Below are positions 20,491 through 35,655 of a stretch of 64,000 nucleotides of DNA, piece by piece (positions within the stretch are counted from its first letter, which is position 1; each line of letters opens with the position of its first letter). Origin of the DNA: Stenotrophomonas sp. SAM-B (GTDB lineage: Bacteria > Pseudomonadota > Gammaproteobacteria > Xanthomonadales > Xanthomonadaceae); the NCBI RefSeq assembly GCF_013387485.1, contig NZ_JABBXB010000013.1, positions 1 through 64,000 of the forward strand, in the 5' to 3' direction. A program made the position numbers and the translations under genes. The notes below the pieces were generated by a model that saw nothing but the letters and a program-made list of their open reading frames with translations, did not search any database and was not told where the DNA came from.

Positions 20491-21752
20491 TGAGCGCCCT
20501 GCTCGATTCCCTCGCCAGCGGCTTCTGCGGCAGCGATGCACGTCGCGCCGAGCTGGACGCCGCCCTGCAGGCCGGCCTGCCCGGCCCGCGTACCGAAGCC
20601 TGGAAATACACCTCGCTGCGCCAGCTGGAGCGCCGCAGCTTCCAGCCCGCCCCGCTCGCCCCGGCCTTGGTCGACGCCGCCCTGCTGGCCGACATCCCGT
20701 CGCCGCGGCTGGTGTTCGTCAACGGCCGTCCGTCCGGCGCGCTGAGCGATGTCGCGGCAGTGCCGGCCGGCGTACAGCTGGCCACGTTGTCCTCGGCGCT
20801 GGCCGCCGGCGATGAAGCCGCGCGCTTCCTTGGGCGCCGATTCGAGCGCAGCGAGGAAGTGTTCGCCCGCCTCAACGCCGCGCTTGCCGATGAAGGCGTG
20901 CTGCTGCGCGTGGAGGAAGGCGTGCAGGTCGAGGCGCCGCTGCAGCTGGTCTTCATCAGCGTGGCCGGCGATACCGATCTGTCCTGGCACCACCGCCACC
21001 TGATCGAACTGCGCAGCGGTGCCGCGCTGGGCGTGGTCGAGCATCACCTGCATGTCGGGGATGCCGCACACCTGGACAACACCCTGGTGCACGTCCACCT
21101 CGCGCAGGACGCCGTGCTCTCGCATGCCCGCGTGCAGGCCGATGCCGCCCGCGCCACCTCGCTGCTGCGCACCGACGCCGTGCTGGCCCGCAACGCGCGA
21201 TACCGCCGTGTCGATCTGGAGCTGGGCGCCGCGCTGAGCCGCCATGAGCTCAACGTCCGCCTGGAAGGCGACAACGCCCAGCTGACCGCCAACGGCGTGC
21301 TGCTCGGCAACGGCCGTCGCCATGTCGACACCCGCCTGGGCATCGAGCACATCGCGCGCGATACGAGCTCGGAAATGGTCTGGCGTGGCGTGGCGGCCAA
21401 CCGCAGCCGCGTGGTCTTCCACGGCGGCATCCACATCCGCGAAGGCGCCGATGGCACCGACGCCAACCTGTCCAACAAGAACCTGCTGCTCTCCGCCGAT
21501 GCCGAGATCGATACCCAGCCGACGCTGGTGATCGATGCCGACGAAGTGAAGGCCGCGCACGGCGCCACGGTCGGCCAGCTCGATGCGAATGCGCTGTTCT
21601 ACCTGCGCTCGCGTGGCCTGCCGGCCGATCGCGCGCAGCAGCTGCTGAGCGCGGCGTTCTGCCATGAACCGCTGAACGTCCTTGACGCACGCCTGACCGA
21701 GCAGCTCACCGCCCAGCTCACCCGAGCGCTGGCCCTGGCGGGCGTCGCATGA
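20490..21752 (+). CDS. sufD: Fe-S assembly protein SufD
   Basis: A 420-residue SufB paralogue. The N-terminal TEAWKYTSLRQLE motif is the usual SufD signature, and the C-terminal half (MVWRGVAANRSRVVFHGGI, NLLLSADAEIDTQPTLVIDA, KAAHGATVGQLDANALFYLR) is the conserved beta-helix, including the HGAT motif. It pairs with SufB and helps deliver iron. The gene overlaps sufC and sufS at either end. Confidence 0.96.
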   Translation: MSALLDSLASGFCGSDARRAELDAALQAGLPGPRTEAWKYTSLRQLERRSFQPAPLAPALVDAALLADIPSPRLVFVNGRPSGALSDVAAVPAGVQLATLSSALAAGDEAARFLGRRFERSEEVFARLNAALADEGVLLRVEEGVQVEAPLQLVFISVAGDTDLSWHHRHLIELRSGAALGVVEHHLHVGDAAHLDNTLVHVHLAQDAVLSHARVQADAARATSLLRTDAVLARNARYRRVDLELGAALSRHELNVRLEGDNAQLTANGVLLGNGRRHVDTRLGIEHIARDTSSEMVWRGVAANRSRVVFHGGIHIREGADGTDANLSNKNLLLSADAEIDTQPTLVIDADEVKAAHGATVGQLDANALFYLRSRGLPADRAQQLLSAAFCHEPLNVLDARLTEQLTAQLTRALALAGVA

Positions 21753-23005
21753 ACCTGTCCACGCCGCGCCCGGTCGCCGATACCGGCGCCGCGCCCGACT
21801 GGGATCGCGTGCGCCTGGACTTCCCGCTGTTGATGCGCGAAGTGCATGGCAAGCCGCTGGTGTACTTCGACAACGCCAACACCGGCCAGAAGCCGGTGCA
21901 GGTGATCGGCGCGGTGGACGAGTTCTACCGCCGCTACAACGCCAACGTCAGCCGCGCGGTGCATGCGCTCGGCACCGAAGCGACCGATGCCTACGAGGGC
22001 GCGCGCAACAAGCTGGCGCGCTTCCTCAACGTGCGCGCCAGCGAGCTGGTGCTGTGCAGCGGCACCACCTTCGCGATCAACCTGGTGGCGTATTCGTGGG
22101 CGCTGCCGCGGCTGAAGGCCGGCGATGTCATCCTGGTTTCGCGCATGGAGCACCATGCCAACATCGTGCCGTGGCAGCTGGTTGCCCAGCGCACCGGCGC
22201 GACCCTCCGCGTGGCCGAGATCACCCCGGACGGCGCGCTGGACCTGGACGCGCTGCGCAGGGCCATGACCCCCGAGGTCAAGCTGCTCGCAGTCGCCCAC
22301 GTGTCCAACGTCCTGGGCACGGTCAACCCGGTCCGGGAGATCTGCCGCGAGGCCCGCAAGCGCGGCATCATCACCGTGGTCGACGGCTCGCAGGCCGTCC
22401 CGCACCGCAAGGTCGACATCCCCGCGATCGGCTGCGACTTCTACGCCATCACCGGCCACAAGATGTGCGGCCCGACCGGCACCGGTGCGCTGTGGGCCAG
22501 GCGCGAGCACCTGGACGCCATGCCGCCGTTCCTCGGCGGGGGGGAGATGATCAAGGAAGTCAGCTTCGAGGGCACCGTGTTCAACGAAGCCCCGCACAAG
22601 TTCGAAGCCGGCACCCCGAACATCGCCGGCTTCATCGGGCTGGGCGTGGCGGTGGACTACCTGGAGTCGCTGGGCCTGGACCACGTGGAAGCCCGCGAAG
22701 GCGAGCTGCTGGCGCACTTCACCGAAGAGCTGAACAAAATCGACGGCCTGCGCATCTTCGGCACCACGCCGGACAAGGCGGCGGTGGTCTCCTTCCTGGT
22801 GGACGGCGCGCATTCGCACGACCTGGCCACCCTGCTCGATCTGGAAGGCGTCGCCGTCCGCTCCGGCCAGCACTGCGCGCACCCGCTGCTGCAGTACTAC
22901 GGCGTCGCCGCGACCTGCCGTGCGTCGCTGGCGTTCTACAACACGCATGAAGAAATCGAACGCTTCATCGTGGCGCTGAACAAGGTGCGCAAGCTGCTGA
23001 GCTGA
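21749..23005 (+). CDS. sufS: Cysteine desulfurase SufS
   Basis: A 418-residue PLP enzyme that takes sulfur from cysteine for cluster assembly. The PLP lysine is in ITGHKMCGPTG near residue 238 and the persulfide-forming Cys in RSGQHCAHPLL near 376. The N-terminal loop reads YFDNANTGQKP where most SufS have DNAATTQKP. No sufE, sufA or sufT gene follows in the window, so the sulfur-accepting partner is encoded elsewhere. It overlaps sufD as ATGA and is followed by a strong terminator. Confidence 0.96.
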   Translation: MNLSTPRPVADTGAAPDWDRVRLDFPLLMREVHGKPLVYFDNANTGQKPVQVIGAVDEFYRRYNANVSRAVHALGTEATDAYEGARNKLARFLNVRASELVLCSGTTFAINLVAYSWALPRLKAGDVILVSRMEHHANIVPWQLVAQRTGATLRVAEITPDGALDLDALRRAMTPEVKLLAVAHVSNVLGTVNPVREICREARKRGIITVVDGSQAVPHRKVDIPAIGCDFYAITGHKMCGPTGTGALWARREHLDAMPPFLGGGEMIKEVSFEGTVFNEAPHKFEAGTPNIAGFIGLGVAVDYLESLGLDHVEAREGELLAHFTEELNKIDGLRIFGTTPDKAAVVSFLVDGAHSHDLATLLDLEGVAVRSGQHCAHPLLQYYGVAATCRASLAFYNTHEEIERFIVALNKVRKLLS

Positions 23006-23998: not shown

Positions 23999-24027
23999 TT
24001 GAAAACGCGAATTGTTCCTATTACGAT
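23999..24027 (+). promoter_or_regulatory. Promoter with Fur box, upstream of the Fiu-like receptor
   Basis: TTGAAA (23999-24004) and TACGAT (24022-24027) are 17 bp apart. The 19-bp Fur-like sequence GCGAATTGTTCCTATTACG (24007-24025) covers the spacer and -10. The same core, GCRAATYRTTCYYAT, recurs at 27680 and 30874. Confidence 0.7.
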
Positions 24028-24066: not shown

Positions 24067-24447
24067 GTGTCCGCCCACCGCTCTCTTCTTGGTGCTCTCG
24101 CCCTGTGGGCCACGCTCTGCGTGGTGCTGCTGGCGTGCCGCGGGCTGAACGGAACGCAGGTCGGCGCTGAGCCAGGCAACGCGCCGGCACGGACCTCGCT
24201 GGCTTGGGAGCTCTCGCCGACGGCGACCGCCCCGGATACGCCGCTGCCCGAACTCCCGGCGGCAGAGCCCTTGTCGGCCACCGAGTCCGGCCCCGATCCC
24301 GAACTCGGCCATGTCGGCCTGCCTCTGCGTCAGCGGCGTACCGCCTGGACGGCACTGGTCCCGTTGTGGCCGTCCGATGCGCTGCGGCGGCAGCGGCTGG
24401 AACCTTCGCTGCGGCTCAACCCCGGCCACGCGCCTCCCTACGCCTGA
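24067..24447 (+). CDS. Small proline-rich lipoprotein-like leader protein
   Basis: A 126-residue protein with GTG start. The N-terminal hydrophobic stretch LLGALALWATLCVVLLAC ends in a lipobox-like LLAC. The rest is Pro/Ala-rich (TAPDTPLPELPAAEP) and ends HAPPYA. It starts 60 bp after the Fur-type promoter and 146 bp before the receptor start. I do not recognise the family. A similar protein precedes the second TonB receptor (27813-28211), and both genes share the downstream sequence ATTCCGGCCCC right after the stop codon, which suggests duplication of the leader region. Confidence 0.5.
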   Translation: MSAHRSLLGALALWATLCVVLLACRGLNGTQVGAEPGNAPARTSLAWELSPTATAPDTPLPELPAAEPLSATESGPDPELGHVGLPLRQRRTAWTALVPLWPSDALRRQRLEPSLRLNPGHAPPYA

Positions 24448-24593: not shown

Positions 24594-26915
24594 ATGATCA
24601 AGAGCCGCAAGCATTCTTCCTTTCCGCGCACCGTTGCCGGCCGCGCCACTGCCGGCCTGGTCACCGGGCTGAGCCTGGCTGTCCTGCCAGTCATCGCGCA
24701 CGCACAGTCCAGCGGCAACACGCCGCAGACCCTGGATCAGATCGATGTGCGCGGCGTGCGCGGCTTCAAGGCCGACAAGGTCGCTTCCCCGAAGTTCACC
24801 CAGTCGCTGCAGGACACCCCGCAGACGATCCAGGTGATCACCAGCGACCTGTTCAACCAGCAGGGTGCGACCACGCTGACCGATGCGCTGCGCAACAGCC
24901 CGGGGGTGGGTACGTTCTACGTGGGTGAGAACGGCAACACCAACACCGGCGACAGCATTTTCATGCGCGGCTTCGACACCTCCAGCAGCATCTTCGTCGA
25001 TGGCGTGCGCGACCTCGGCTCGATCTCGCGGGATGTGTTCAATACCGAGCAGGTGGAGGTGGCCAAGGGCCCGGCCGGCACCGACAACGGCCGCTCGGCA
25101 CCGACGGGTGCGATCAACATGGTCAGCAAACAGGCCAACCTGCACAACGCCGTGTCGGGCACAGTCTCGGCCGGTACCGACAGCCAGCAGCGCGGCACCG
25201 CCGATTGGAACCAGGCGCTCGGCGCGACCAGTGCGCTGCGCGTGAATGCGATGTGGCAGGACAGCGACCCGCCCGGCCGCGACCACGTCAACAACAGCCG
25301 CTGGGGCATCGCACCGTCGTTGGCGTTCGGCCTCGGCACCAGTACCCGCTATTTCCTCAACCTGCTCTACGTGGACCAGGACAACGTGCCCGACGGCGGC
25401 GTGCCGACCCTGGGCCTGCCGGGCTGGACGCCGCAGCCCAGCCTGGAGCGGCTGGCCGGGCAGCCGGTCGATCCGGAGAATTTCTACGGCACCCGCGCCG
25501 ACCACGACGATGTCACCGCGAAGATGGCGACGTTCCGCATCGAGCACGACGTCAACGACGCCGTGCGCGTGACCAACACCGCCCGCTGGGGCCGCACCGA
25601 CCAGGATTACCTGCTGACCGCGTTCATGGGTACCGGCACGCGCGGTGCCAATGGCGCACCGACCGGCAACATCCGCTTCACCAACCCGGCCGATCCAGCC
25701 ACCTACACCATCGCGCGCAGCCTGCCGACCTTCAAGGACCAGCAGAACACGATCCTGACCGACCAGCTCAACCTGCGCGCGGACATCACCACCGGGGCGA
25801 TCGTGCACAACCTGAGCGCCGGCCTGGAATTCACCCGCGAGGAGCTCAAGAGCTTCGGCCAGGCCGCCACCGGTGGCACCACCTGGTCGCCGGCCAACCT
25901 GTATGCCCCGGACTGGAACGCGACCGGACTGACCTGGGCACACAACGGTGCCGACAGCCACGGCAAGACCACCACCTCCTCGGTCTATCTGTTCGACACC
26001 CTCAACTTCGGCGAAAGCCTGCTGGTCACCGCGGGCCTGCGCGCCGACCACTACACGACCGAGTACCAGAGTGCATCGGTGTGCGGCGGCCGTGGTCCGG
26101 CCTGTGGCGCCAACCCGGTCGGCACGGTGATCGCCAATCCCTCGCTTGAACATTCGGACACCCTGCTCAACTGGAAGCTTGGCGCGGTCTACAAGGTCGA
26201 TGACATCGTCAGCCTGTACGCCAACTACGCCCTCTCCCAGCAGCCGCCGGGCGGCAGCAACTTCCAGCTGAGCACCTCCGCCAGCAGCGCCGACAACCCG
26301 AGCCTGGATCCGCAGAAGGCCAGGACCGTCGAAGTGGGGACCAAGTGGGCCTTCCTCGATGACGCACTCGCCTTCAACGTGGCGCTGTTCAAGACCGAGG
26401 TCAGCAACGAGATCAACACGCAGGTCCTGGACGATGCAGGCAACCCGACCCAGACCGGCAAGAAGTCGGTGCAGGGCATCGAGGTCTCCACCGTGGGCCG
26501 CATCACCGACAACTGGTCGGTTTCGGCGGGCTACAGCCATCTGGATACCGAGGTGGATGAAGGCGCCAACGTCGCCGCCGACGGCACCCGCAACCTGACC
26601 TACACCCCGGGCGACACCTTCACCAGCTGGACCAGCTATGCCTTCCCGTCCGGCCTGACGATCGGCGGCGGCGTGCGCTACGCCGGCCAGATGCATCGCG
26701 GCACGGACGGTGCGGTCGGTACCCCGGCCTTCACCAAGTCCTACACGGTCTACGATGCGGTGGCTTCGTATGCGATCAACGAGCATCTGGTGCTGCGCTT
26801 GAACGCATACAACCTGTTCGACAAGCAGTACGTGGCTGCGATCAACAAGAGCGGCTACCGTTACACCCCGGGTGCCCCGCGCACCGTCCTGTTCAGTGCG
26901 GACTTCCGCTTCTGA
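24594..26915 (+). CDS. TonB-dependent catecholate siderophore receptor (Fiu/PiuA-like)
   Basis: A 773-residue outer-membrane receptor. The signal peptide is cleaved after about residue 38 (VLPVIAHAQS), then LDQIDVRGV serves as TonB box, then the plug (QDTPQTIQVITSDLFNQQGA, FMRGFDTSSSIFVDGVRD, and VEVAKGPAGTDNGRSAPTGA) and a 22-strand barrel ending in VLFSADFRF with terminal Phe. It resembles Fiu of E. coli and PiuA of Pseudomonas, which import catechol-iron complexes. The next gene is piuC, the same pairing as fiu-ybiX. Under Fur control. Confidence 0.9.
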   Translation: MIKSRKHSSFPRTVAGRATAGLVTGLSLAVLPVIAHAQSSGNTPQTLDQIDVRGVRGFKADKVASPKFTQSLQDTPQTIQVITSDLFNQQGATTLTDALRNSPGVGTFYVGENGNTNTGDSIFMRGFDTSSSIFVDGVRDLGSISRDVFNTEQVEVAKGPAGTDNGRSAPTGAINMVSKQANLHNAVSGTVSAGTDSQQRGTADWNQALGATSALRVNAMWQDSDPPGRDHVNNSRWGIAPSLAFGLGTSTRYFLNLLYVDQDNVPDGGVPTLGLPGWTPQPSLERLAGQPVDPENFYGTRADHDDVTAKMATFRIEHDVNDAVRVTNTARWGRTDQDYLLTAFMGTGTRGANGAPTGNIRFTNPADPATYTIARSLPTFKDQQNTILTDQLNLRADITTGAIVHNLSAGLEFTREELKSFGQAATGGTTWSPANLYAPDWNATGLTWAHNGADSHGKTTTSSVYLFDTLNFGESLLVTAGLRADHYTTEYQSASVCGGRGPACGANPVGTVIANPSLEHSDTLLNWKLGAVYKVDDIVSLYANYALSQQPPGGSNFQLSTSASSADNPSLDPQKARTVEVGTKWAFLDDALAFNVALFKTEVSNEINTQVLDDAGNPTQTGKKSVQGIEVSTVGRITDNWSVSAGYSHLDTEVDEGANVAADGTRNLTYTPGDTFTSWTSYAFPSGLTIGGGVRYAGQMHRGTDGAVGTPAFTKSYTVYDAVASYAINEHLVLRLNAYNLFDKQYVAAINKSGYRYTPGAPRTVLFSADFRF

Positions 26916-26966: not shown

Positions 26967-27653
26967 ATGTTGCTGCATGTTCCCGACGTACTGAGCGCCG
27001 ATGAACTGGCCCACCTCCAGCGCGCGCTGGCCGAGGCGGCATGGGCCGATGGGCGCGAGACCGTCGGCGCGCAGGGCGCGCAGGTCAAGCGCAATGAACA
27101 ACTGCCCGACGCCTCGCCGCTGAAGGCCGAGCTGGGCCGGATCGTACTGGTCGCCCTGGACCGGCATCCGCTGTTCTTCGCGGCGGCATTGCCGCTGCGG
27201 ATTCTGCCGCCCCGCTTCAACCGCTACCAGGGCGGCGGCGAGTACGGCTTCCACGTGGATGGGGCGGTGATGATCACCCCGCTGGACGGACAGCGCAGCC
27301 ATCTGCGTTCGGACGTATCGTGCACGCTGTTCCTCACCGCGCCGGAGGACTATGACGGCGGCGAGCTGGTGATCAGCGATACCTACGGCGAGCACGAGGT
27401 GAAGCTCCCCGCCGGCGATCTGGTGCTGTATCCCTCGAGCAGCCTGCACCGCGTCAACCCGGTCACCCGTGGGTCGCGGTTGGCCTCATTCTTCTGGGTG
27501 CAGAGTATGGTGCGCGATGACAGCGCGCGGCGCACGCTGCTGGAGATGGACAGTGCGATCGAAACGCTGCGCTCCACCGGTGCCGACAGCGCGGCCGTAC
27601 TGCAGCTGACCGGCGTGTATCACAATCTCCTGCGACGCTGGAGCGAGATCTGA
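26967..27653 (+). CDS. piuC: Fe(II)/2-oxoglutarate-dependent PKHD-type hydroxylase
   Basis: A 228-residue dioxygenase of the PiuC/YbiX group. Iron ligands are visible in [12 protein letters not shown] (His-x-Asp) and in [15 protein letters not shown] (distal His and the 2-oxoglutarate-binding Arg). It follows its usual partner, a Fiu/PiuA-like receptor, 51 bp downstream. The reaction is unknown; involvement in siderophore use is supported by gene pairing and Fur control in other bacteria. It probably acts in the cytoplasm, since no signal peptide is seen. Confidence 0.93.
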
Positions 27654-27679: not shown

Positions 27680-27723
27680 GCAAATCATTCCCATTTGCGC
27701 TTGGGAACATATCTCACTACAAT
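27680..27723 (+). promoter_or_regulatory. Promoter with Fur box, upstream of the second TonB receptor
   Basis: TTGCGC (27695-27700) and TACAAT (27718-27723) are 17 bp apart. The Fur box GCAAATCATTCCCATTTGC (27680-27698) is a near-palindrome overlapping the -35. Confidence 0.75.
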
Positions 27724-27812
27724 CTCGGCGCGTTGCGAACCGGACATCCGGTCCGCCGCTACCGGGCCTCCTTTTGCGCCACCCTCACCGCCATCGCAGC
27801 TTCGCCACCGCC

Positions 27813-28211
27813 ATGCGCGGGCAACGCCCTGCGCTGCCCGTGGTGCTGGCGTGGCTCGCAGTGCTGGCGATGCTCTTTACCGGCCTGCCGGTGCTGGAAC
27901 GGGCAGCCCCCGGCAGCACCGTCATGGTCCTGCAGATGCCGATGGACGAGCGCCCGGCCGGCGGTGGGGAAACCACGCCGCAGGAAGAAGCCCCGGCCAA
28001 ACCGCGCCGGGTCGCCAGCGCGCGCCCTGCCGCGACGCCGCCGCAGCTGCCTTCACTGCCGCCGGTCGTGGAATCCCTGGATTCGCTGATGGCCACCCTG
28101 GTGGCACAGCCGCCGCGGATCGTGCCCGCCATCGATTCGGCACCGGCCACGCCGCTGCCTGCCGCACCCGGGCTGCGCGTCCAGCGCGGCCAAGCCCCAC
28201 CGCAGGGCTAA
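27813..28211 (+). CDS. Small proline-rich membrane-anchored leader protein
   Basis: A 132-residue protein: an N-terminal hydrophobic segment (ALPVVLAWLAVLAMLFTGLP), then a Pro-rich tail (QLPSLPPVVESLDSLMATLV) ending QAPPQG. A TTG start at 27774 would add 13 residues. It lies between the Fur promoter and the second TonB receptor. It is not clearly homologous in sequence to the leader at 24067, but has the same layout, size and position and the same ATTCCGGCCCC just after the stop. Function unknown; a periplasm-spanning role next to the receptor is a guess. Confidence 0.5.
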   Translation: MRGQRPALPVVLAWLAVLAMLFTGLPVLERAAPGSTVMVLQMPMDERPAGGGETTPQEEAPAKPRRVASARPAATPPQLPSLPPVVESLDSLMATLVAQPPRIVPAIDSAPATPLPAAPGLRVQRGQAPPQG

Positions 28212-28352: not shown

Positions 28353-30776
28353 ATGGCCCAGCGCCATCGTCGTCGCACGTCCCTGTCCCGCTGCACCCTG
28401 TCCCTCGCCCTGCTCGGTGCGCTGAGCGCCCCGGCCTTCGCCAACGGCGACGCCGCCGGTCCGACCACTCTGGACAAGGTGGTGGTCACCGCCGCCGGCT
28501 TCGAGCAGAAGATCGCCGATGCCCCGGCCAGCATCAGCGTGATCAGCCGCGAAGAATTGAGCAAGCGCCCGTACACCAGCCTGGTGGATGCGCTGCGCGA
28601 CGTGGAGGGCATCGACGTGGGCATGGAGCCGACCGACAAGAACGGCCGCGCCACCATCTCCATGCGGGGCATGCCGTCTGACTACACCCTGGTGCTGATC
28701 GACGGTCGCCGCCAGAGCAACGCCGGCAACCTGTATCCGAACAACTTCGGCGGCGGCCAGTTCTCGTACATGCCGCCGCTGGATGCGATCGAACGCATCG
28801 AAGTGGTGCGCGGCCCGATGTCGACCCTGTACGGCTCGGATGCGATGGGCGGGGTGATCAACATCATCACCCGTCGCAACCAGACCGAGTGGCATGGCGC
28901 GGTCACCCAGGGCTTCACCCTGCAGCAGGACGACCAGTTCGGTGACGCGCGCAGCACCGATGTCTACCTGAGCGGCCCGTTGATCAAGGACCGACTGGGC
29001 CTGTCGGTGCGCGGCAGCTACTACGACGCCAAAGCCTCCAACCCGGAATGGGACGACCTCCAGCTGCCCGACGGCACGATGTGGTCGCGCAGCATCGGCT
29101 TCGGTGGCGGCGGCAAGGCGGTAGCCAACACCAACTGGAACACCGGCCTGCGCCTGAACTTCATCGTCAACGACGACCACGAGCTGTGGCTGGACTACGA
29201 CGTGTCGCGCCAGAAGTACGACAACAGCGAAGGCCAGACCGGCACCCTGGACAGCCTCGCCAGCCTGTGGCGCGTCGGCAACGCGACGATCCCCAACCCG
29301 AACGGCACCGGCACCGTCAGCCGCCGCGTGGTGCAGCCGCGCGTGGGCTACACCGCCTACCAGCGCTACGAGCGCGACCAGTTGGCGCTGACCCACCAGG
29401 GCCGCTATGAATTCGGCACCTGGCAGACCACGCTGACCCACATCACCAGCAACAACCTCGGCCGCTCGCTGCCGCTGACGCTGGACGAGCGCGCGGATCT
29501 GCAGGGCCTGTGGAACGACGTCTGCCGCCGCACCGGCGCCGCCGCCAACTGCGCGGCCGGCGCGCGCAACGGGCTGGGTGCGCTCAACGCCGCCGAGCTG
29601 GCGCGCCTGCAGGCCTTCCTGCCGCGCCCGCTGCGCACCATGGAACTGAAGGGCAACGTGCTGGACACGATGCTCGACCTGACCTTCGGCGCGCACAAGC
29701 TGACCGTCGGCGGCCAGTACAACGACACCGACATGGTCGATGGCGTGTTCGGCATGGACGGCAACGGCTACAAGACCAACGTCAAGCAGCAGCACCGCAT
29801 GTGGGCGCTGTTCGCCGAGGACAACTGGTCGCTGACCGACACCCTGACCGCCACCGTCGGCGTGCGCTATGACGACCACAACATCTTCGGCAGCCACGTC
29901 AGCCCGCGTGCCTACCTGGTATGGAACGCCAACGATGCCTGGACCCTCAAGGGCGGCGTCAGCACCGGCTACAAGACCCCGCGTCCGGACCAGCTGTTCC
30001 CGGGCATCGTCGGCTTCGGTGGCCAGGGCGTGACCCCGCTGGTCGGCTCGCCCAACCTGAAGCCGGAAACCAGCACCAACTACGAAATCGCCGCGTACTA
30101 CGAGGGCGATCGCTGGGGTTTCAACGTCACCGGCTTCCTCAACAAGTTCGATGACAAGATCGCCAGCGGCGGCACCTTCGCCAACTGCGAAGTCGCCCCG
30201 GACGATGGCAGCTACTGCGTGGACATCGGCCCGGGCTGGGCCGAGCTGGGCTACAGCACCTTCGGCCAGAGCGTGAACATCGACAAGGCCGAAACCCGCG
30301 GCGTGGAAGCGGCTGCCCAGGTCGATCTGCTCGACACCCTCCAGCTGCGCGGCAACTACACCTGGACCAGGAGCGAGCAGACCAGCGGCACCGGCAAGGG
30401 CCTGCCCATCACCGGCAACCCGGCCAGGCACATGGCCAATGCCAGCCTGAACTGGCAGATCAACGAAGCGGTCAGCCTGTCGCTGATCGGCGAAGGCCGC
30501 TACGACCGCTACCGCGACACGCTGGTCAGCAACGTCGGCGGCGTGAGCAGCTCGCAGACCCGCTACTACGAGGACTACACGATCTTCCACCTCGGCGGCA
30601 GCTGGGACATCAACACCTGGCTGACGGTCAACGCGCGGGTCAACAATCTGTTCGACAAGGACTTCGTCTCGCAGTCCTGCGTGCTGATCAGCGACAGCGA
30701 ATTCAACTGCGTGGACGACTACGCCACCAAGGACCAGCGTCGCAGCTACTGGATTTCAGTGAACGCCAAGTTCTGA
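28353..30776 (+). CDS. TonB-dependent receptor, CirA/FepA-like
   Basis: An 807-residue outer-membrane receptor. The signal peptide ([15 protein letters not shown]) is followed by TonB box TLDKVVVTA, the plug domain ([59 protein letters not shown], and [10 protein letters not shown]) and a barrel ending in YWISVNAKF. The plug resembles catecholate/enterobactin receptors (CirA, FepA). A loop Cys pair near the C-terminus (QSCVLI, FNCVDD) probably forms a disulfide. Fur box upstream and strong terminator downstream make it a separate unit from the redox cassette that follows. Confidence 0.88.
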
Positions 30777-30862: not shown

Positions 30863-30871
30863 GCCCACAAA

Positions 30872-30900
30872 TTGCGAATCATTCTCATCAATGGTGTAAT
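30872..30900 (+). promoter_or_regulatory. Promoter with Fur box of the redox cassette
   Basis: TTGCGA (30872-30877) and TGTAAT (30895-30900) are 17 bp apart. The Fur box GCGAATCATTCTCATCAAT (30874-30892) lies across the -35 and spacer. It directly follows a terminator, so the PepSY-to-reductase genes should be an independent iron-repressed unit. Confidence 0.75.
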
Positions 30901-30928
30901 TCGCCCCTCAGCACTTCCTCCTGCGACC

Positions 30929-31567
30929 GTGGCCACCAGCGCTCCCTCTTCCAGCGTGCAACAACAACGCCGCGGCTTCTGGCTGCGCACGCTGCACCAG
31001 TGGCACTGGATCAGCTCCGCGGTGTGCCTGATCGGCATGCTGCTGTTCGCCGCGACCGGCATCACCTTGAACCACGCATCCAGGATCGAAGCCAAGCCGG
31101 AGGTGGTCAGCCGCCAGCTGGAGCTGCCTGTCGACCTGCTCGGCAAGCTCGGCGAGCGCGCCGATGGCCACGCACCGATTCCCCGCGTGGCCACCCGCTG
31201 GCTGGATGCGCAGCTCGGCATCTCGATCGGGCGCCGCCCGGCCGAATGGTCCGATGGCGAAATCTACCTGTCCCTGCCCAGCCCGGGGGCCGATGCCTGG
31301 TTGAGCATCGACCGCGAATCGGGCGCCGTGGAGTACGAATCCACCGCGCGCGGCTGGGTGTCCTATTTCAACGATCTGCATAAAGGGCGCAATGCCGGGC
31401 CCGCCTGGGGCTGGTTCCTGGATATCTTCGCCGTGGCCTGCCTGGTGTTCTGCATCACCGGCCTGTTCCTGCTGCACCTGCATGCCCGCCAGCGCCGCAT
31501 GACCTGGCCGCTGGTCGGCCTGGGCCTGCTGATCCCGCTGCTGATCGCCCTGATCCTCATCCACTGA
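30929..31567 (+). CDS. PepSY-associated transmembrane protein
   Basis: A 212-residue inner-membrane protein, GTG start. Three hydrophobic segments are seen: [40 protein letters not shown] and [18 protein letters not shown], with a periplasmic domain between the first two ([20 protein letters not shown] is PepSY-like). Histidines LHQWHW and LNH near the first helix and LHLHAR after the second could bind haem, as in PepSY/ferric-reductase-like proteins. It is the first gene after a Fur-type promoter and probably passes electrons across the membrane to the flavoprotein encoded next. That role is inference from the cassette. Confidence 0.8.
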
Positions 31568-31592
31568 CCTTCCCTTCCCGGAGCCGCACACC

Positions 31593-32111
31593 ATGCGCGT
31601 CACCCTGACCATCGCCCTGAGCGGCCTGCTGGCCACCTCGCCGGCCTACGCCACCACCCTGGACATCAATGTCGAGGTGCCCAAGCTCAACGTGGCCGAG
31701 TACCACCGCCCGTATGTGGCCGTGTGGCTGGAAGGTGCCGACCAGAAGGTCGCCGCCAACCTGTCGGTCTGGTACCAGCAGACCGGCAACAGCGAAGGCC
31801 ATGGCACCAAGTGGCTGCCTGACCTGCGCCAGTGGTGGCGCAAGAGCGGCCGCACCCTGGAGGTGCCGGTGGACGGCGTGACCGGTCCGACCCGCCCGGT
31901 CGGCAAGCATGCGCTGTCGTTCAACGACAAGCAGCCGGCGCTCAAGGCACTCGCGCCGGGCAACTACACCCTCGTGGTGGAAGCGGTGCGCGAAGTCGGC
32001 GGCCGCGAACTGCTCAAAATCCCCTTCACCTGGCCGGTCACGGCCGCACAGACGGGCAAGGCCCAGGGCGCGACCGAACTCGGTCTGGTCACCCTGTCCG
32101 CCAAGCCCTGA
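31593..32111 (+). CDS. DUF2271 periplasmic protein, likely FMN-carrying
   Basis: A 172-residue exported protein (signal peptide to about Ala20, SPAYA). The family is recognised by [32 protein letters not shown] and [15 protein letters not shown]. Residues 94-100 read DGVTGPT, which matches the ApbE flavinylation pattern D-G-x-T-G-A-T except for Pro in place of Ala; Thr100 would carry the FMN. An apbE gene lies in the same cluster. It likely works as a periplasmic flavin carrier between the PepSY membrane protein and an iron substrate (inference). DUF2271 proteins have been linked to flavinylation systems. Confidence 0.82.
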
Positions 32112-32136
32112 TACCCCATCCACCTGGAGTTTTTCG

Positions 32137-32943
32137 ATGAAGCGCACGCTCGTCCTCGCCGCCGCCATGGCCGCCGCACTTCCGTTCTCCGCCCTGGCCC
32201 ACAAGGCCTGGCTGCAGCCCTCGCAGACCGTGATCGCGGGCACCAACCCGTGGATCACCGTCGATGCGGCGGTCTCCAACGACCTGTTCTACTTCAACCA
32301 CGTGCCGCTGCGCCTGGACAACCTGATCATCACCGCGCCCGATGGCAGCACCGTGCAGCCGCAGAACGCGGCGACCGGCAAGTTCCGCAGCGTGTTCGAT
32401 GTCGAGCTGACCCAGCAGGGCACCTACCGCCTGGCCACGATCAACAACGGCCTGTCGGCCAGCTGGGAAGAAGACGGCAAGCCCAAGCGCTGGCGTGGTA
32501 CCCCGGCCACCTTCGCCACCGAGGTGCCGAAGAACGCGAAGAACCTGCAGGTCTCGCAGTCGGTCGGCCGCGTGGAGACCTTCGTCACCAACGGCACCCC
32601 GAACGACACCGCGCTCAAGCCGACCAACCAGGGCATCGAGATGATCGCGCTGGCCCACCCGAACGATCTGGTCGCCGGTGAAGCCGCGCGCTTCCGCGTG
32701 CTGGTCGACGGCAAGCCGACCGCCGGCCTGGCGTTCGAGATCACCCGCGGCGGCACCCGGTACCGCAACGCGCAGGACGAGATCAAGGTCAGCACCGATG
32801 CCAAGGGCGAGTTCGCCGTCACCTGGCCGGAAGCGGGCATGTACTGGCTGGAAACCGGCACCGAGGACAGCAAGACCTCGATCAAGGAAGCCAAGAAGCG
32901 TCGCCTGAGCTACGTGGCCACGCTGGAAGTGCTGCCGGAGTAA
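32137..32943 (+). CDS. DUF4198 periplasmic protein
   Basis: A 268-residue exported protein with signal peptide [21 protein letters not shown]. The mature protein begins with HKAWLQPS, a common feature of the DUF4198 family that may serve as an N-terminal metal site, and has two beta-rich parts ([14 protein letters not shown] and [15 protein letters not shown], carboxypeptidase-regulatory-like). DUF4198 genes recur next to DUF2271 and TonB receptors and are thought to help metal handling. It follows DUF2271 after 25 bp. Possible terminator-like stem at 32985-33010 before apbE. Confidence 0.85.
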
Positions 32944-32984
32944 CCGCCTGCGGCGCAGGCGCTGCACGCGCCCTCCACCTCACC

Positions 32985-33010
32985 CGCCCCCCTCGACACG
33001 ACGGGGGCTT
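32985..33010 (+). terminator. Weak terminator-like stem between DUF4198 and apbE genes
   Basis: GCCCCC and GGGGGC pair around an 11-nt loop, followed by TTTC. The stem is short and the T-run poor, so it may only attenuate read-through. Confidence 0.4.
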
Positions 33011-33052
33011 TCACCCGACGCAGTCCGGCCATCGGGCTTACTAGGCCCCGAC

Positions 33053-34045
33053 GTGCCCACCTCCATGAACAACCCGGATCTCGACATCGCCAGCCTCGGC
33101 GGCCACACCATGGGCACCACGTGGCAGGTAAAGCTGGCCGTGGCACGCAGCCGCGACCTGCATCCGCTGCACGCCGGCATCCAGGCGCAGCTGGACGCCA
33201 TCGTGGCGCAGATGAGCACGTGGGAAGCCGACAGCGATATCGCGCGTTTCAACCGGGCGCCCGCCGGTGAATGGCAGGCGTTGCCGCCGTTGTTCGACAC
33301 GGTGCTGCAGTGCGCGCTGGAGATCGCACAGCGCAGTGGCGGCGCCTTCGATCCGACCGTGGGTCCGCTGGTGGCGCTGTGGGGGTTCGGCGCGCAGGCG
33401 CAGGCCCGGCAGATTCCCGATGCGGCCGCCCTCGCCGCGACCCGTGCGCGGTGTGGCTGGCAACGCCTGCAGTGGCAGCCCGGTCGCCTGCGGCAACCCG
33501 GTGGGCTGGCGCTGGATCTCTCGGCGATCGCCAAGGGCTTTGGCGTCGACCAGGTCAGCGCGTGGCTGCGCCAGAACGGTGTGCAGGCAGCGCTGGTGGA
33601 AGTCGGCGGCGAGCTGCACGGGTTCGGACGCAAGCCCGACAGTCAGCCGTGGCGCGTGCTGGTGGAATCCGCTCCGGAAGACGATGCGCAGGCAGACCAT
33701 CCGCCGCGCGTGCTCGCGCTGACGGAGCGTGCGGTCGCCACCTCCGGTGATCGTTGGCACCATTTCGAGCACGGCGGTGAGCAGTACAGCCATACCCTGG
33801 ATCCGCGCATCGGTGCGCCGGTCACACGCGCCGCGGCCGCGGTCACCGTGGTTGCCGACAGCGCCATGCAGGCCGATGCCTGGGCCACCGCATTGACGGT
33901 GATGGGCGCCGACGACGGCATGGCATTTGCGCGCACCCATGCGCTGGCCGCACGCTTTGTCAGCCGGGGGACGCACGGTATCGAGGAACACATGAGTCCC
34001 GCATTCGAACACCTGCTCGCCGACGACCGCGTGGACGCGGCATGA
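33053..34045 (+). CDS. apbE: FAD:protein FMN transferase (ApbE)
   Basis: A 330-residue ApbE that attaches FMN to Thr/Ser of target proteins. Signatures: HTMGTTWQVKLA, MSTWEADSDIARFNR, SGGAFDPTVGPLVALWGFG, the LDLSAIAKGFGVDQVSAWL core and HTLDPRIGAPV. GTG at 33053 or ATG at 33065 may be the start. No signal peptide or lipobox is seen with either start, nor in the open frame upstream, although most ApbE proteins are exported. The likely substrate is the exported DUF2271 protein in this cluster. The gene overlaps the reductase as ATGA. Confidence 0.93.
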   Translation: MPTSMNNPDLDIASLGGHTMGTTWQVKLAVARSRDLHPLHAGIQAQLDAIVAQMSTWEADSDIARFNRAPAGEWQALPPLFDTVLQCALEIAQRSGGAFDPTVGPLVALWGFGAQAQARQIPDAAALAATRARCGWQRLQWQPGRLRQPGGLALDLSAIAKGFGVDQVSAWLRQNGVQAALVEVGGELHGFGRKPDSQPWRVLVESAPEDDAQADHPPRVLALTERAVATSGDRWHHFEHGGEQYSHTLDPRIGAPVTRAAAAVTVVADSAMQADAWATALTVMGADDGMAFARTHALAARFVSRGTHGIEEHMSPAFEHLLADDRVDAA

Positions 34046-35655
34046 GTCTGCGTCCTTCCCGTGCGTGGCTGGGCAACCTGGCGGTGATTCTGGTGCTGGC
34101 GGCCATCGCCTGGGCGCTGCTGCGCCTGCATCTGGGTGAAGCGTGGTGGCAGAGCGCACCCCTGGCCGCGCAGTGGCGCTGGGCCGCCGGCAGCCTGCTG
34201 CTTTATGCGGCGTTCTGCGCGCTGATCTGGTGGCGTGGACGACCGCGCGAGGCGCGCGTGGCCGATGACGGACCCGCCCCCATCCTGCTGGTCTGGGCGA
34301 GCCAGACCGGCTTCGCGCAGCAGCTGTGCGAACGCAGTGCGGACGCGTTGCGCGCTGCCGGACTGCCGGTCCGCATCCGCGCGCTGCATGCGGTGACGGC
34401 CGAGCTTCTGCAGCGCAGCGGGCAGGTGTTGTTCGTGGTCAGCACCACCGGCGAAGGCGATGCGCCGGATCATGCGCTGCCCTTCCTGCGCAACGTGATG
34501 CCGCAGTCGCTGGCCCTGCCACAACTGCAGTACGGCGTGCTGGCGCTGGGCGACCGCAGCTATGGGCACTTCTGCGCGTTCGGCCACCAGCTCGATGCGT
34601 GGCTGCGCCAGCACGGCGCGCATCCGCTGTTCGACACGGTCGAGGTGGACAACGCCGATCCCGGCGCACTGCGCCACTGGCAGCAACTGCTCGGCCAGCT
34701 GGGCGGTGAAGCCACCGAACTGCCGGACTGGGCGCCGGCCGACTATCTGCCGTGGCAACTGCAGGCGCGGCACCTGGAAAACCCGGGCAGCCCGGGCGCG
34801 CCGACCTACCGCATCACGCTGGTGCCGGCCGACGGCGTGCTGCCGCTGTGGCAGGCCGGCGACGTCGTCGAGATCGGACCGCAGCATGCACCGGCCGAGG
34901 TCGAGGCCTGGCTGCGTGATACCGCGTGGGAGGGCGATGCGGACATCGATGGACGGCCGCTGCGTGCGCATCTCGCGCGGGCGCACCTCCCGGATGCCGA
35001 CGAAATTCCGGCATCGGCCGACACGACCGCACTGGTGGCCGCACTCCGTCCGCTTCCGCACCGCGAGTACTCGATCGCCAGCCTGCCTGCCGAAGGCCAG
35101 GTGCAGCTGCTGCTGCGCCGCCAGCTGCGTCCGGATGGGACGCCGGGGCTGGGCAGCGGGTGGCTGTGCGATCACGCCGCGCTGGAGGGGCAGATCGATC
35201 TGCGCTTCCGCAGCAACCCGAATTTCCACGGTGTCGCCGCCGCGACGCCGCTGATCCTGATCGGCAACGGCACCGGCATCGCCGGCCTGCGCGCCCACCT
35301 GCGCGAGCGCATCAGCGCCGGCGCGCGCCGCAACTGGCTGCTGTTCGGCGAACGCACGGCCGCGCACGACTTCTTCTTCGGCGACGACCTGCGCGCCTGG
35401 CTGCGCGATGGCTGGATCGCGCGGCTGGATACGGTGTTCAGTCGCGATGGTGGCGAGCATCACTACATCCAGGACCGTCTGCAGGCGCACATCGGCGAAC
35501 TGCAGCAGTGGGTGCATGACGGGGCCACCATCCTGGTCTGCGGCAGCCTGCAGGGCATGGCGCCGACGGTGGATGCGGTGATCGAGCAGGCGCTGGGTCG
35601 CGACGGCAAAGAAGCGCTGATCGTGGCCGGTCGCTACCGGCGCGACGTGTACTGA
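34042..35655 (+). CDS. Membrane-anchored flavodoxin/NADPH reductase (CPR/SiR-FP type)
   Basis: A 537-residue diflavin reductase. Two N-terminal transmembrane helices (LAVILVLAAIAWALLRLHL and AAGSLLLYAAFCALIWW) precede a flavodoxin domain (WASQTGFAQQL, STTGEGDAPDH, LGDRSYGHFCAFG) and a ferredoxin-NADP reductase domain (REYSIAS for FAD, GNGTGIAGLRAHL for NADPH, GERTAAHDFFF, CGSLQGMA). It should pass electrons from NADPH via FAD and FMN to the membrane. With the PepSY, DUF2271 and ApbE proteins it makes a plausible electron path to the periplasm for ferric iron reduction. Confidence 0.9.
   Translation: MSLRPSRAWLGNLAVILVLAAIAWALLRLHLGEAWWQSAPLAAQWRWAAGSLLLYAAFCALIWWRGRPREARVADDGPAPILLVWASQTGFAQQLCERSADALRAAGLPVRIRALHAVTAELLQRSGQVLFVVSTTGEGDAPDHALPFLRNVMPQSLALPQLQYGVLALGDRSYGHFCAFGHQLDAWLRQHGAHPLFDTVEVDNADPGALRHWQQLLGQLGGEATELPDWAPADYLPWQLQARHLENPGSPGAPTYRITLVPADGVLPLWQAGDVVEIGPQHAPAEVEAWLRDTAWEGDADIDGRPLRAHLARAHLPDADEIPASADTTALVAALRPLPHREYSIASLPAEGQVQLLLRRQLRPDGTPGLGSGWLCDHAALEGQIDLRFRSNPNFHGVAAATPLILIGNGTGIAGLRAHLRERISAGARRNWLLFGERTAAHDFFFGDDLRAWLRDGWIARLDTVFSRDGGEHHYIQDRLQAHIGELQQWVHDGATILVCGSLQGMAPTVDAVIEQALGRDGKEALIVAGRYRRDVY

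Follow-up and report, generated by a model that had tools for sequence, protein, structure and literature searches.

The analyzed window, a stretch of 64,000 nt from contig NZ_JABBXB010000013.1 of Stenotrophomonas sp. SAM-B, contains five plus-strand genes (30929–35655) that encode, in this order, a PepSY_TM_like_2 protein, a DUF2271 protein, a DUF4198 protein, the flavin transferase ApbE and a diflavin reductase (Table 1). All five reading frames are open and have Pfam matches, and the apbE and reductase genes overlap by 4 bp (34042–34045). Two genes for TonB-dependent receptors and one for PiuC precede the cassette on the same strand, also with family matches. The first-pass annotation of the window had described this gene content and neighborhood as a Fur-controlled electron-transfer cassette for iron, spanning 30872–35655. 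The observation was confirmed, and its interpretation was supported in part. The end of the span was exact, but its start lies inside the Fur-type site, and the first gene begins with a GTG at about 30929.

Table 1. Features of the cassette and of its upstream region
Feature	Coordinates	Strand	Basis
PepSY_TM_like_2 inner-membrane protein, 212 aa, GTG start	30929–31567	+	PF16357 E 1.8e-83, PF03929 E 1.1e-10
DUF2271 protein, 172 aa, with signal peptide	31593–32111	+	PF10029 E 2.8e-50; leader with small-residue cleavage site
Predicted flavin-attachment motif DGVTGPT, DUF2271 residues 94–100	31872–31892	+	Sequence, conservation, motif rule of PMC12052999
DUF4198 protein, 268 aa, with signal peptide	32137–32943	+	PF10670 E 9.1e-59; fold like Zcp and Ni-bound IsDUF4198
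Codon of DUF4198 His22, expected N-terminal residue of the mature protein	32200–32202	+	Ala21-His22 invariant in 97/97
ApbE flavin transferase, 330 aa, GTG 33053 or ATG 33068, without signal peptide	33053–34045	+	PF02424 E 1.4e-83
Membrane-anchored CysJ-like diflavin reductase, 537 aa	34042–35655	+	Alignment to CysJ 6efv
Fur-type operator ahead of the cassette; second overlapping register 30874–30892	30868–30886		Consensus and weight matrix
Fur-type site behind piuC and ahead of the second receptor gene	27680–27698		Second-best separate site of the window (matrix)
Weak Fur-type site ahead of the first receptor gene	24001–24019		Third-best separate site (matrix)
TonB-dependent receptor, Fiu type, start approximate	24594–26915	+	NF007349 1023.5 bits (cut-off 686)
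PiuC/YbiX-type Fe(II) dioxygenase	26967–27653	+	NF003975 344.5 bits (cut-off 180)
Second TonB-dependent receptor, CirA/FepA-like	28353–30776	+	PF00593 and PF07715

DUF2271 was found above the cut-off in 76 of 149 sampled genomes of the same family, the Xanthomonadaceae, and in 65 of 398 genomes of the Pseudomonadota. One stretch was fetched from 60 of the 76 genomes, together with 40 further phylum matches; mostly the best-scoring loci were fetched, so the sample leans to close relatives. In addition, 80 of 374 confirmed stretches were included as named loci, and some of these 80 repeat the same genomes (identical ApbE rows). Scored by domain position, the strict five-gene order occurred in 59 of the 60 same-family loci, which answers a check that had been proposed with the annotation; the sole exception is a stretch that reaches the contig end. 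The order was also found in 14 of the 40 other phylum loci and in 64 of the 80 named loci. In the remaining phylum loci, the stretch was without apbE (8 cases), the reductase gene (6) or both (7), contained only DUF2271-DUF4198 (2) or an ApbE-DUF2271 fusion (2), or had no DUF2271 by profile (1). A PiuC gene was present on the same strand in 48/60 same-family loci (L056–L115), showing that the PiuC/receptor pair is linked to the cassette in the Xanthomonadaceae; the values were 4/40 for the other phylum loci and 33/80 for the named loci. A search for phage relatives of DUF2271 gave no match.

The cassette is not new; it belongs to a system that is already known and partly characterized. In Caulobacter crescentus, CC_3059–3063 (CCNA_03155–03159) match it gene for gene and in their order, and they include a “sulfite reductase flavoprotein” (PMC3751524). 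They are upregulated under iron limitation and in a fur mutant, for which two table columns list values between 12 and 51, and Fur control was reported on the basis of lacZ fusions and gel shifts (PMC3751524). The Caulobacter genes are a predicted operon with a proposed role in periplasmic ferric reduction, and insertions in them lowered the fitness in ethylenediaminetetraacetate (EDTA) (PMC12004947). Thus, the complete five-gene set including a dedicated diflavin reductase, which the first-pass annotation had put forward as its own inference, was already in print. The genomic context differs in that the cassette lies directly behind PiuC and two receptors here, whereas the Caulobacter PiuC/receptor pair (CCNA_00027/00028) has distant locus tags.

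The cassette also belongs to a class defined by Meheust et al. (2021), who described 3220 PepSY-like clusters, 2833 with DUF2271 and 1500 with DUF4198 (PMC8238504). These clusters likewise combine PepSY, DUF2271, DUF4198 and ApbE and were linked to iron. The class assignment follows from the presence of PF16357 within five genes of ApbE or DUF2271 (PF16357, PF10029 and PF02424 are adjacent) and of at least one flavinylation gene with a signal peptide, which here is DUF2271 and not ApbE. Three differences to the described clusters were found: NAD-binding domains were counted on the PepSY-like genes in that paper, whereas the donor is a separate reductase here, the ApbE has no signal peptide, and the flavin site reads GPT. 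The Caulobacter genes and the PepSY-like class together rule out that the five-gene set is categorically novel. Pairs of DUF4198/DUF2271 genes next to iron-responsive receptors had been noted in Alteromonas in 2020 (PMC7190382). The siderophore reductases FoxB and HiuB also are PepSY transmembrane proteins with conserved His residues and are tied to siderophore iron; in contrast to these, the protein encoded here is of the short PF16357 type and has a separate periplasmic flavoprotein. With this analysis, a known operon that is controlled by Fur and probably reduces ferric iron is also documented for a Stenotrophomonas-like genome, where it is joined to PiuC and receptor genes.

Two approaches were used to search for Fur-type sites: a 19-bp consensus, with 20 first-order Markov simulations as background, and a palindromic weight matrix. 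The matrix was trained on regions ahead of PepSY genes outside this genus, and a site was obtained from 60 of 91 such regions. Both identified the site ahead of the cassette as the best of the 64 kb, in agreement with the Fur-type promoter that had been annotated. It is the single best consensus match (13/19; 0.35 sites with at least 13 matches expected), and the three separate sites with the highest matrix scores start at 30868, 27680 and 24001, one ahead of the cassette and one ahead of each receptor unit. Upstream of the PepSY gene, the best consensus score was at least 12 in 43 of 97 cassettes (window included), compared with about 10% of random stretches from the same loci. Several results weaken the evidence from these sites. 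The best matrix scores of 30 Markov simulations averaged 13.1, and one simulation reached 22.96, which exceeds the 21.02 of site 30868. Site 24001, with a score of 12.1, is below this average and weak alone, and other cassettes (e.g. L061, L081, L087 and L102) have consensus scores of 8–9 upstream of PepSY, which equals the background. Therefore, the argument for Fur is based on the joint placing of the three sites and not on single-site scores. A RegPrecise-based Fur regulon of S. maltophilia contains piuC (SMLT_RS05555), pepSY (RS05540), RS05535 and a receptor gene (RS05565) (PMC6240677); judged only by the labels and the closeness of the locus tags, this would be the same locus.

In the Pfam search, the reductase had no matches other than PF00258 (87.2 bits against a cut-off of 25) and PF00175 (32 bits against 22), and a FAD-binding linker family was not among them. 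It aligns to CysJ (6efv) over residues 80–215 and 322–521, and thus a flavodoxin half is joined to an FAD/NADPH half. The NCBIfam cut-off for the CysJ equivalog was missed (217 versus 668 bits), and therefore, the protein is CysJ-like, but not CysJ. Within the 95 residues ahead of the FMN motif, the number of hydrophobic segments is two for 50 cassettes, one for 24 and zero for 2; among the 100 cassettes examined (window included), 7 had no motif by the pattern used and 17 had no separate reductase reading frame.

The PepSY protein is probably a di-heme transmembrane electron carrier, as suggested by its His residues. His26 and His151 are invariant (97/97), and His49 (93/97), His212 (90/95) and His185 (82/97) are highly conserved. 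The structure model (predicted local distance difference test 91.7) contains long helices at residues 8–48, 158–186 and 192–211. In this model, His26 and His185 would be oriented towards the cytosolic face and His49, His151 and His212 towards the periplasmic face, as two hemes need. FoxB contains two heme sites with conserved His pairs (PMC11334425). A likeness to FoxB was detected neither by fold, as Foldseek gave nothing under E 0.001, nor by a profile search of the PDB sequences, which gave nothing relevant. The genome of strain SAM-B encodes three further full-length PepSY_TM proteins (G000:C4:953–2056, G000:C2:93383–94396 and G000:C3:225249–226316; L156–L158), which are possible siderophore reductases.

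The DUF2271 protein is probably the periplasmic FMN-bearing electron carrier, with the flavin expected on Thr100. Asp94 and Thr100 are conserved in 98% and 99% of 98 rows, respectively. However, the sequence reads DGVTGPT, with TGPT instead of the [S/T]GA[S/T] of the published motif D-x-x-[S/T]-G-A-[S/T], and exchange of this Ala to Val reduced flavinylation to about half (PMC12052999); the word “proline” is absent from the main text of this review. It could thus be assumed that a DUF2271 with GPT is not flavinylated and has another role, while ApbE serves an unseen substrate. The presence of GPT at three loci without apbE in the fetched stretch (L093, at a contig end, L189 and L190) would be in line with this. 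Nevertheless, we regard this alternative as very improbable: the two motif residues are nearly invariant, among 80 rows whose cassette has a separate apbE the modified Thr is preceded by Pro in 47 and by Ala in 33, so that GPT adjoins apbE in 47 cases, and neither FMN_bind nor NqrB/RnfD occurs in 55 genomes with a single ApbE. If Thr100 is flavinylated, motif searches should be broadened to include GPT. The idea that the flavin motif is degenerate where the cassette has no apbE was set aside, because 18 of the 19 genomes searched (17 with an apbE-less stretch, G092 and G237) encode an ApbE close by or at another locus, and S/TSAT variants are found both with and without a cassette apbE.

The catalytic residues of the ApbE, Ser231, His247 and Asp275, are invariant (80/80), and their spacing of 16 and 28 is identical to that of the triad Ser241/His257/Asp285 of the V. 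cholerae enzyme (PMC12052999). The frame upstream of the window apbE is Arg/Pro-rich without a hydrophobic leader, so the protein does not class as a secreted ApbE. Leaders were called by hydrophobicity in 12-residue stretches, with all possible starts considered, and not with a trained predictor. Among 151 cassette ApbEs (window included, 145 different), 20 have a leader and 131 have none, and the scores leave a gap between the lowest value with leader (2.15) and the highest without (1.86). The highest-scoring leaderless proteins start with a conserved R-V-L-I-P stretch. The DUF2271 leaders score 1.32–2.88 outside two fusions, and a few of them thus overlap the range of the signal-less ApbEs. 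On the ApbE tree (FastTree), the leader trait changes at least five times. In 55 of 66 genomes with a signal-less cassette ApbE no other ApbE is encoded, and 11 have two. FMN_bind was found in 5 of the 66, all among these 11, and NqrB/RnfD in none of 56 (the 55 single-ApbE genomes and that of the window); DUF3570, Flavodoxin_4 and FMN_red were not searched. The genome of strain SAM-B (4.25 Mb, 65 contigs, completeness given as 100) has one ApbE and one DUF2271, and it has no FMN_bind and no NqrB/RnfD.

Because the ApbE has no export signal and is the only one of the genome, loading may take place in the cytosol, and a dedicated signal-less ApbE together with an exported DUF2271 suggests flavin attachment before export. 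We tentatively propose that ApbE loads FMN onto the DUF2271 precursor in the cytosol before Sec export. The same might hold, with similar reserve, for most bacteria with the cassette, in which a signal-less ApbE, usually the only one of the cell, would flavinylate the Sec precursor of DUF2271 and the flavin would pass through the Sec channel. Alternatively, the flavin is attached to DUF2271 in the periplasm, which ApbE reaches by an unseen route; the leader might be of an unusual kind, translation might begin at another start, or export might need no leader. Secretion is the rule for the ApbEs that have been studied well, and in an older study cited in PMC12052999, complementation was not achieved with a cytosolic version. 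Furthermore, the 20 ApbEs with leaders indicate that both states work with the same partners, and the N-termini of some alpha- and betaproteobacterial ApbEs (R-V-L-I-P, then AxA) faintly resemble short leaders. These points favor the alternative. The gap in the ApbE scores and the Arg/Pro-rich frame upstream of the window gene are, however, not easily reconciled with a periplasmic ApbE, and a signal-less cytosolic ApbE that serves a cytosolic fumarate reductase is known from Klebsiella (PMC12052999), so that we consider periplasmic loading rather unlikely.

No description of cytosolic loading of an exported protein by ApbE was found among the titles and opening lines of abstracts listed in the literature search, outside of which most subscription papers lay. 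The FAD supply to periplasmic ApbE has been described as unresolved (PMC4767422). If cytosolic loading is true, periplasmic FAD would not be needed, and a cytosolic ApbE with an exported substrate would be another answer to this question that is cheap and direct to test. Filters that demand a secreted ApbE would then miss most ApbEs of this class.

A functional link between the loss of the ApbE signal and the GPT motif was considered and rejected. The raw counts looked strong, with leader/Ala 13, leader/Pro 0, none/Ala 20 and none/Pro 47 (Fisher p 2e-6). The tree, however, offers no more than 3 independent pairs when restricted to branches with good support, and 5 when all branches are taken; these pairs give no support for a link, and shared ancestry suffices. 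Similarly, the idea that the DUF2271 leader is under unusual constraint where same-family ApbEs form a signal-less clade was not used. There, the leader identity at 70–80% mature identity was 0.63 for DUF2271 versus 0.51 for DUF4198, and it was 0.45 for DUF2271 in the group with ApbE leaders, but the sign reverses in other Pseudomonadota (0.35–0.40 versus 0.44–0.49).

Further ApbE variants were observed. An R-[VI]-[LA]-[VI]-P start is common in beta- and alphaproteobacterial signal-less cassette ApbEs (L116, L117, L137, L141, L205–L208, L214, L217, L223, L225, L232, L234, L237 and L239). ApbE-DUF2271 fusions with a leader exist (L152 and L154), and in G060:C1, G053:C7, G001:C23 and G134:C1, the second copy of ApbE shares its open frame or stretch with a DUF2271 match that it overlaps.

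The DUF4198 protein is probably a periplasmic metal-binding partner that handles the metal, as predicted from an invariant His and the fold. Ala21-His22 is invariant (97/97), and His22 directly follows the signal peptide. The fold matches the metal-binding Zcp (9MHI and related entries) and the Ni-bound IsDUF4198 (9GCB), in which a His likewise follows the signal peptide at the N-terminus. The identities to IsDUF4198 and Zcp are 15–19%; the other conserved His residues of the protein encoded here are His55 and His174 (precursor numbering), and a counterpart of His18 is not evident in it. DUF4198 is the most poorly understood member of the set, and its invariant N-terminal His suggests a role that can be tested.

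Together, these features point to a module for metal reduction outside the cytosol that is repressed by Fur and falls into the known PepSY-like/DUF2271 flavinylation class, and, with some reserve, we favor an assimilatory ferric reductase as its most likely function. Electrons would flow from NADPH to FAD (flavin adenine dinucleotide) and FMN (flavin mononucleotide) of the inner-membrane-anchored reductase, cross the membrane through the hemes of the PepSY protein and arrive at the FMN covalently bound to Thr100 of the periplasmic DUF2271, onto which ApbE would have loaded it. The DUF2271 flavin could then reduce Fe(III), either free or bound to a siderophore or chelate imported by the TonB receptors. 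DUF4198 might bind a labile or freshly reduced divalent metal via its N-terminal His and hand it on, e.g. to FeoB, which is encoded in the genome (FeoB_C match). The electron path of the first-pass annotation fits the anchored CysJ-like reductase, the transmembrane PepSY protein, the signal peptide and attachment-like motif of DUF2271, the catalytic residues of ApbE and the Fur-type site. It omitted the probable PepSY hemes, and thus the path would not be flavin-only, and it omitted the probable metal binding by DUF4198.

The electron path might be right and iron not the main substrate, so that another metal, repair or another periplasmic oxidoreduction under iron starvation would be served. 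Arguments for this come from DUF4198, as IsDUF4198 binds Ni best, NikR-type regulators are among the neighbors of the family, and zinc, copper and cobalt appear in the titles of the Zcp entries. The Fur control and EDTA phenotype in Caulobacter (PMC3751524, PMC12004947), the adjoining Fur-type site, receptors and PiuC, and the iron reductase activity of the PepSY-like VciB, as cited in PMC8238504, are more easily explained by iron, and a different main substrate therefore seems improbable to us.

For the second receptor, no NCBIfam cut-off was reached among the 25 matches listed. The nearest named relative of the DUF2271 protein is that of Stenotrophomonas sp. PD6 (95%), and other rows reach up to 99%. 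A plus-strand reading frame upstream of the iron locus (21749–23005) presumably encodes a SufS-type cysteine desulfurase, by look alone. Two small plus-strand reading frames (24067–24447 and 27774–28211), each ahead of a receptor gene and just behind a Fur-type site, encode one N-terminal hydrophobic segment and an otherwise Pro-rich remainder. The former had no relatives at E 1e-3 in the fetched loci, whereas for the latter, 8 of the fetched loci from the genus contain relatives, with E values down to 5e-21.

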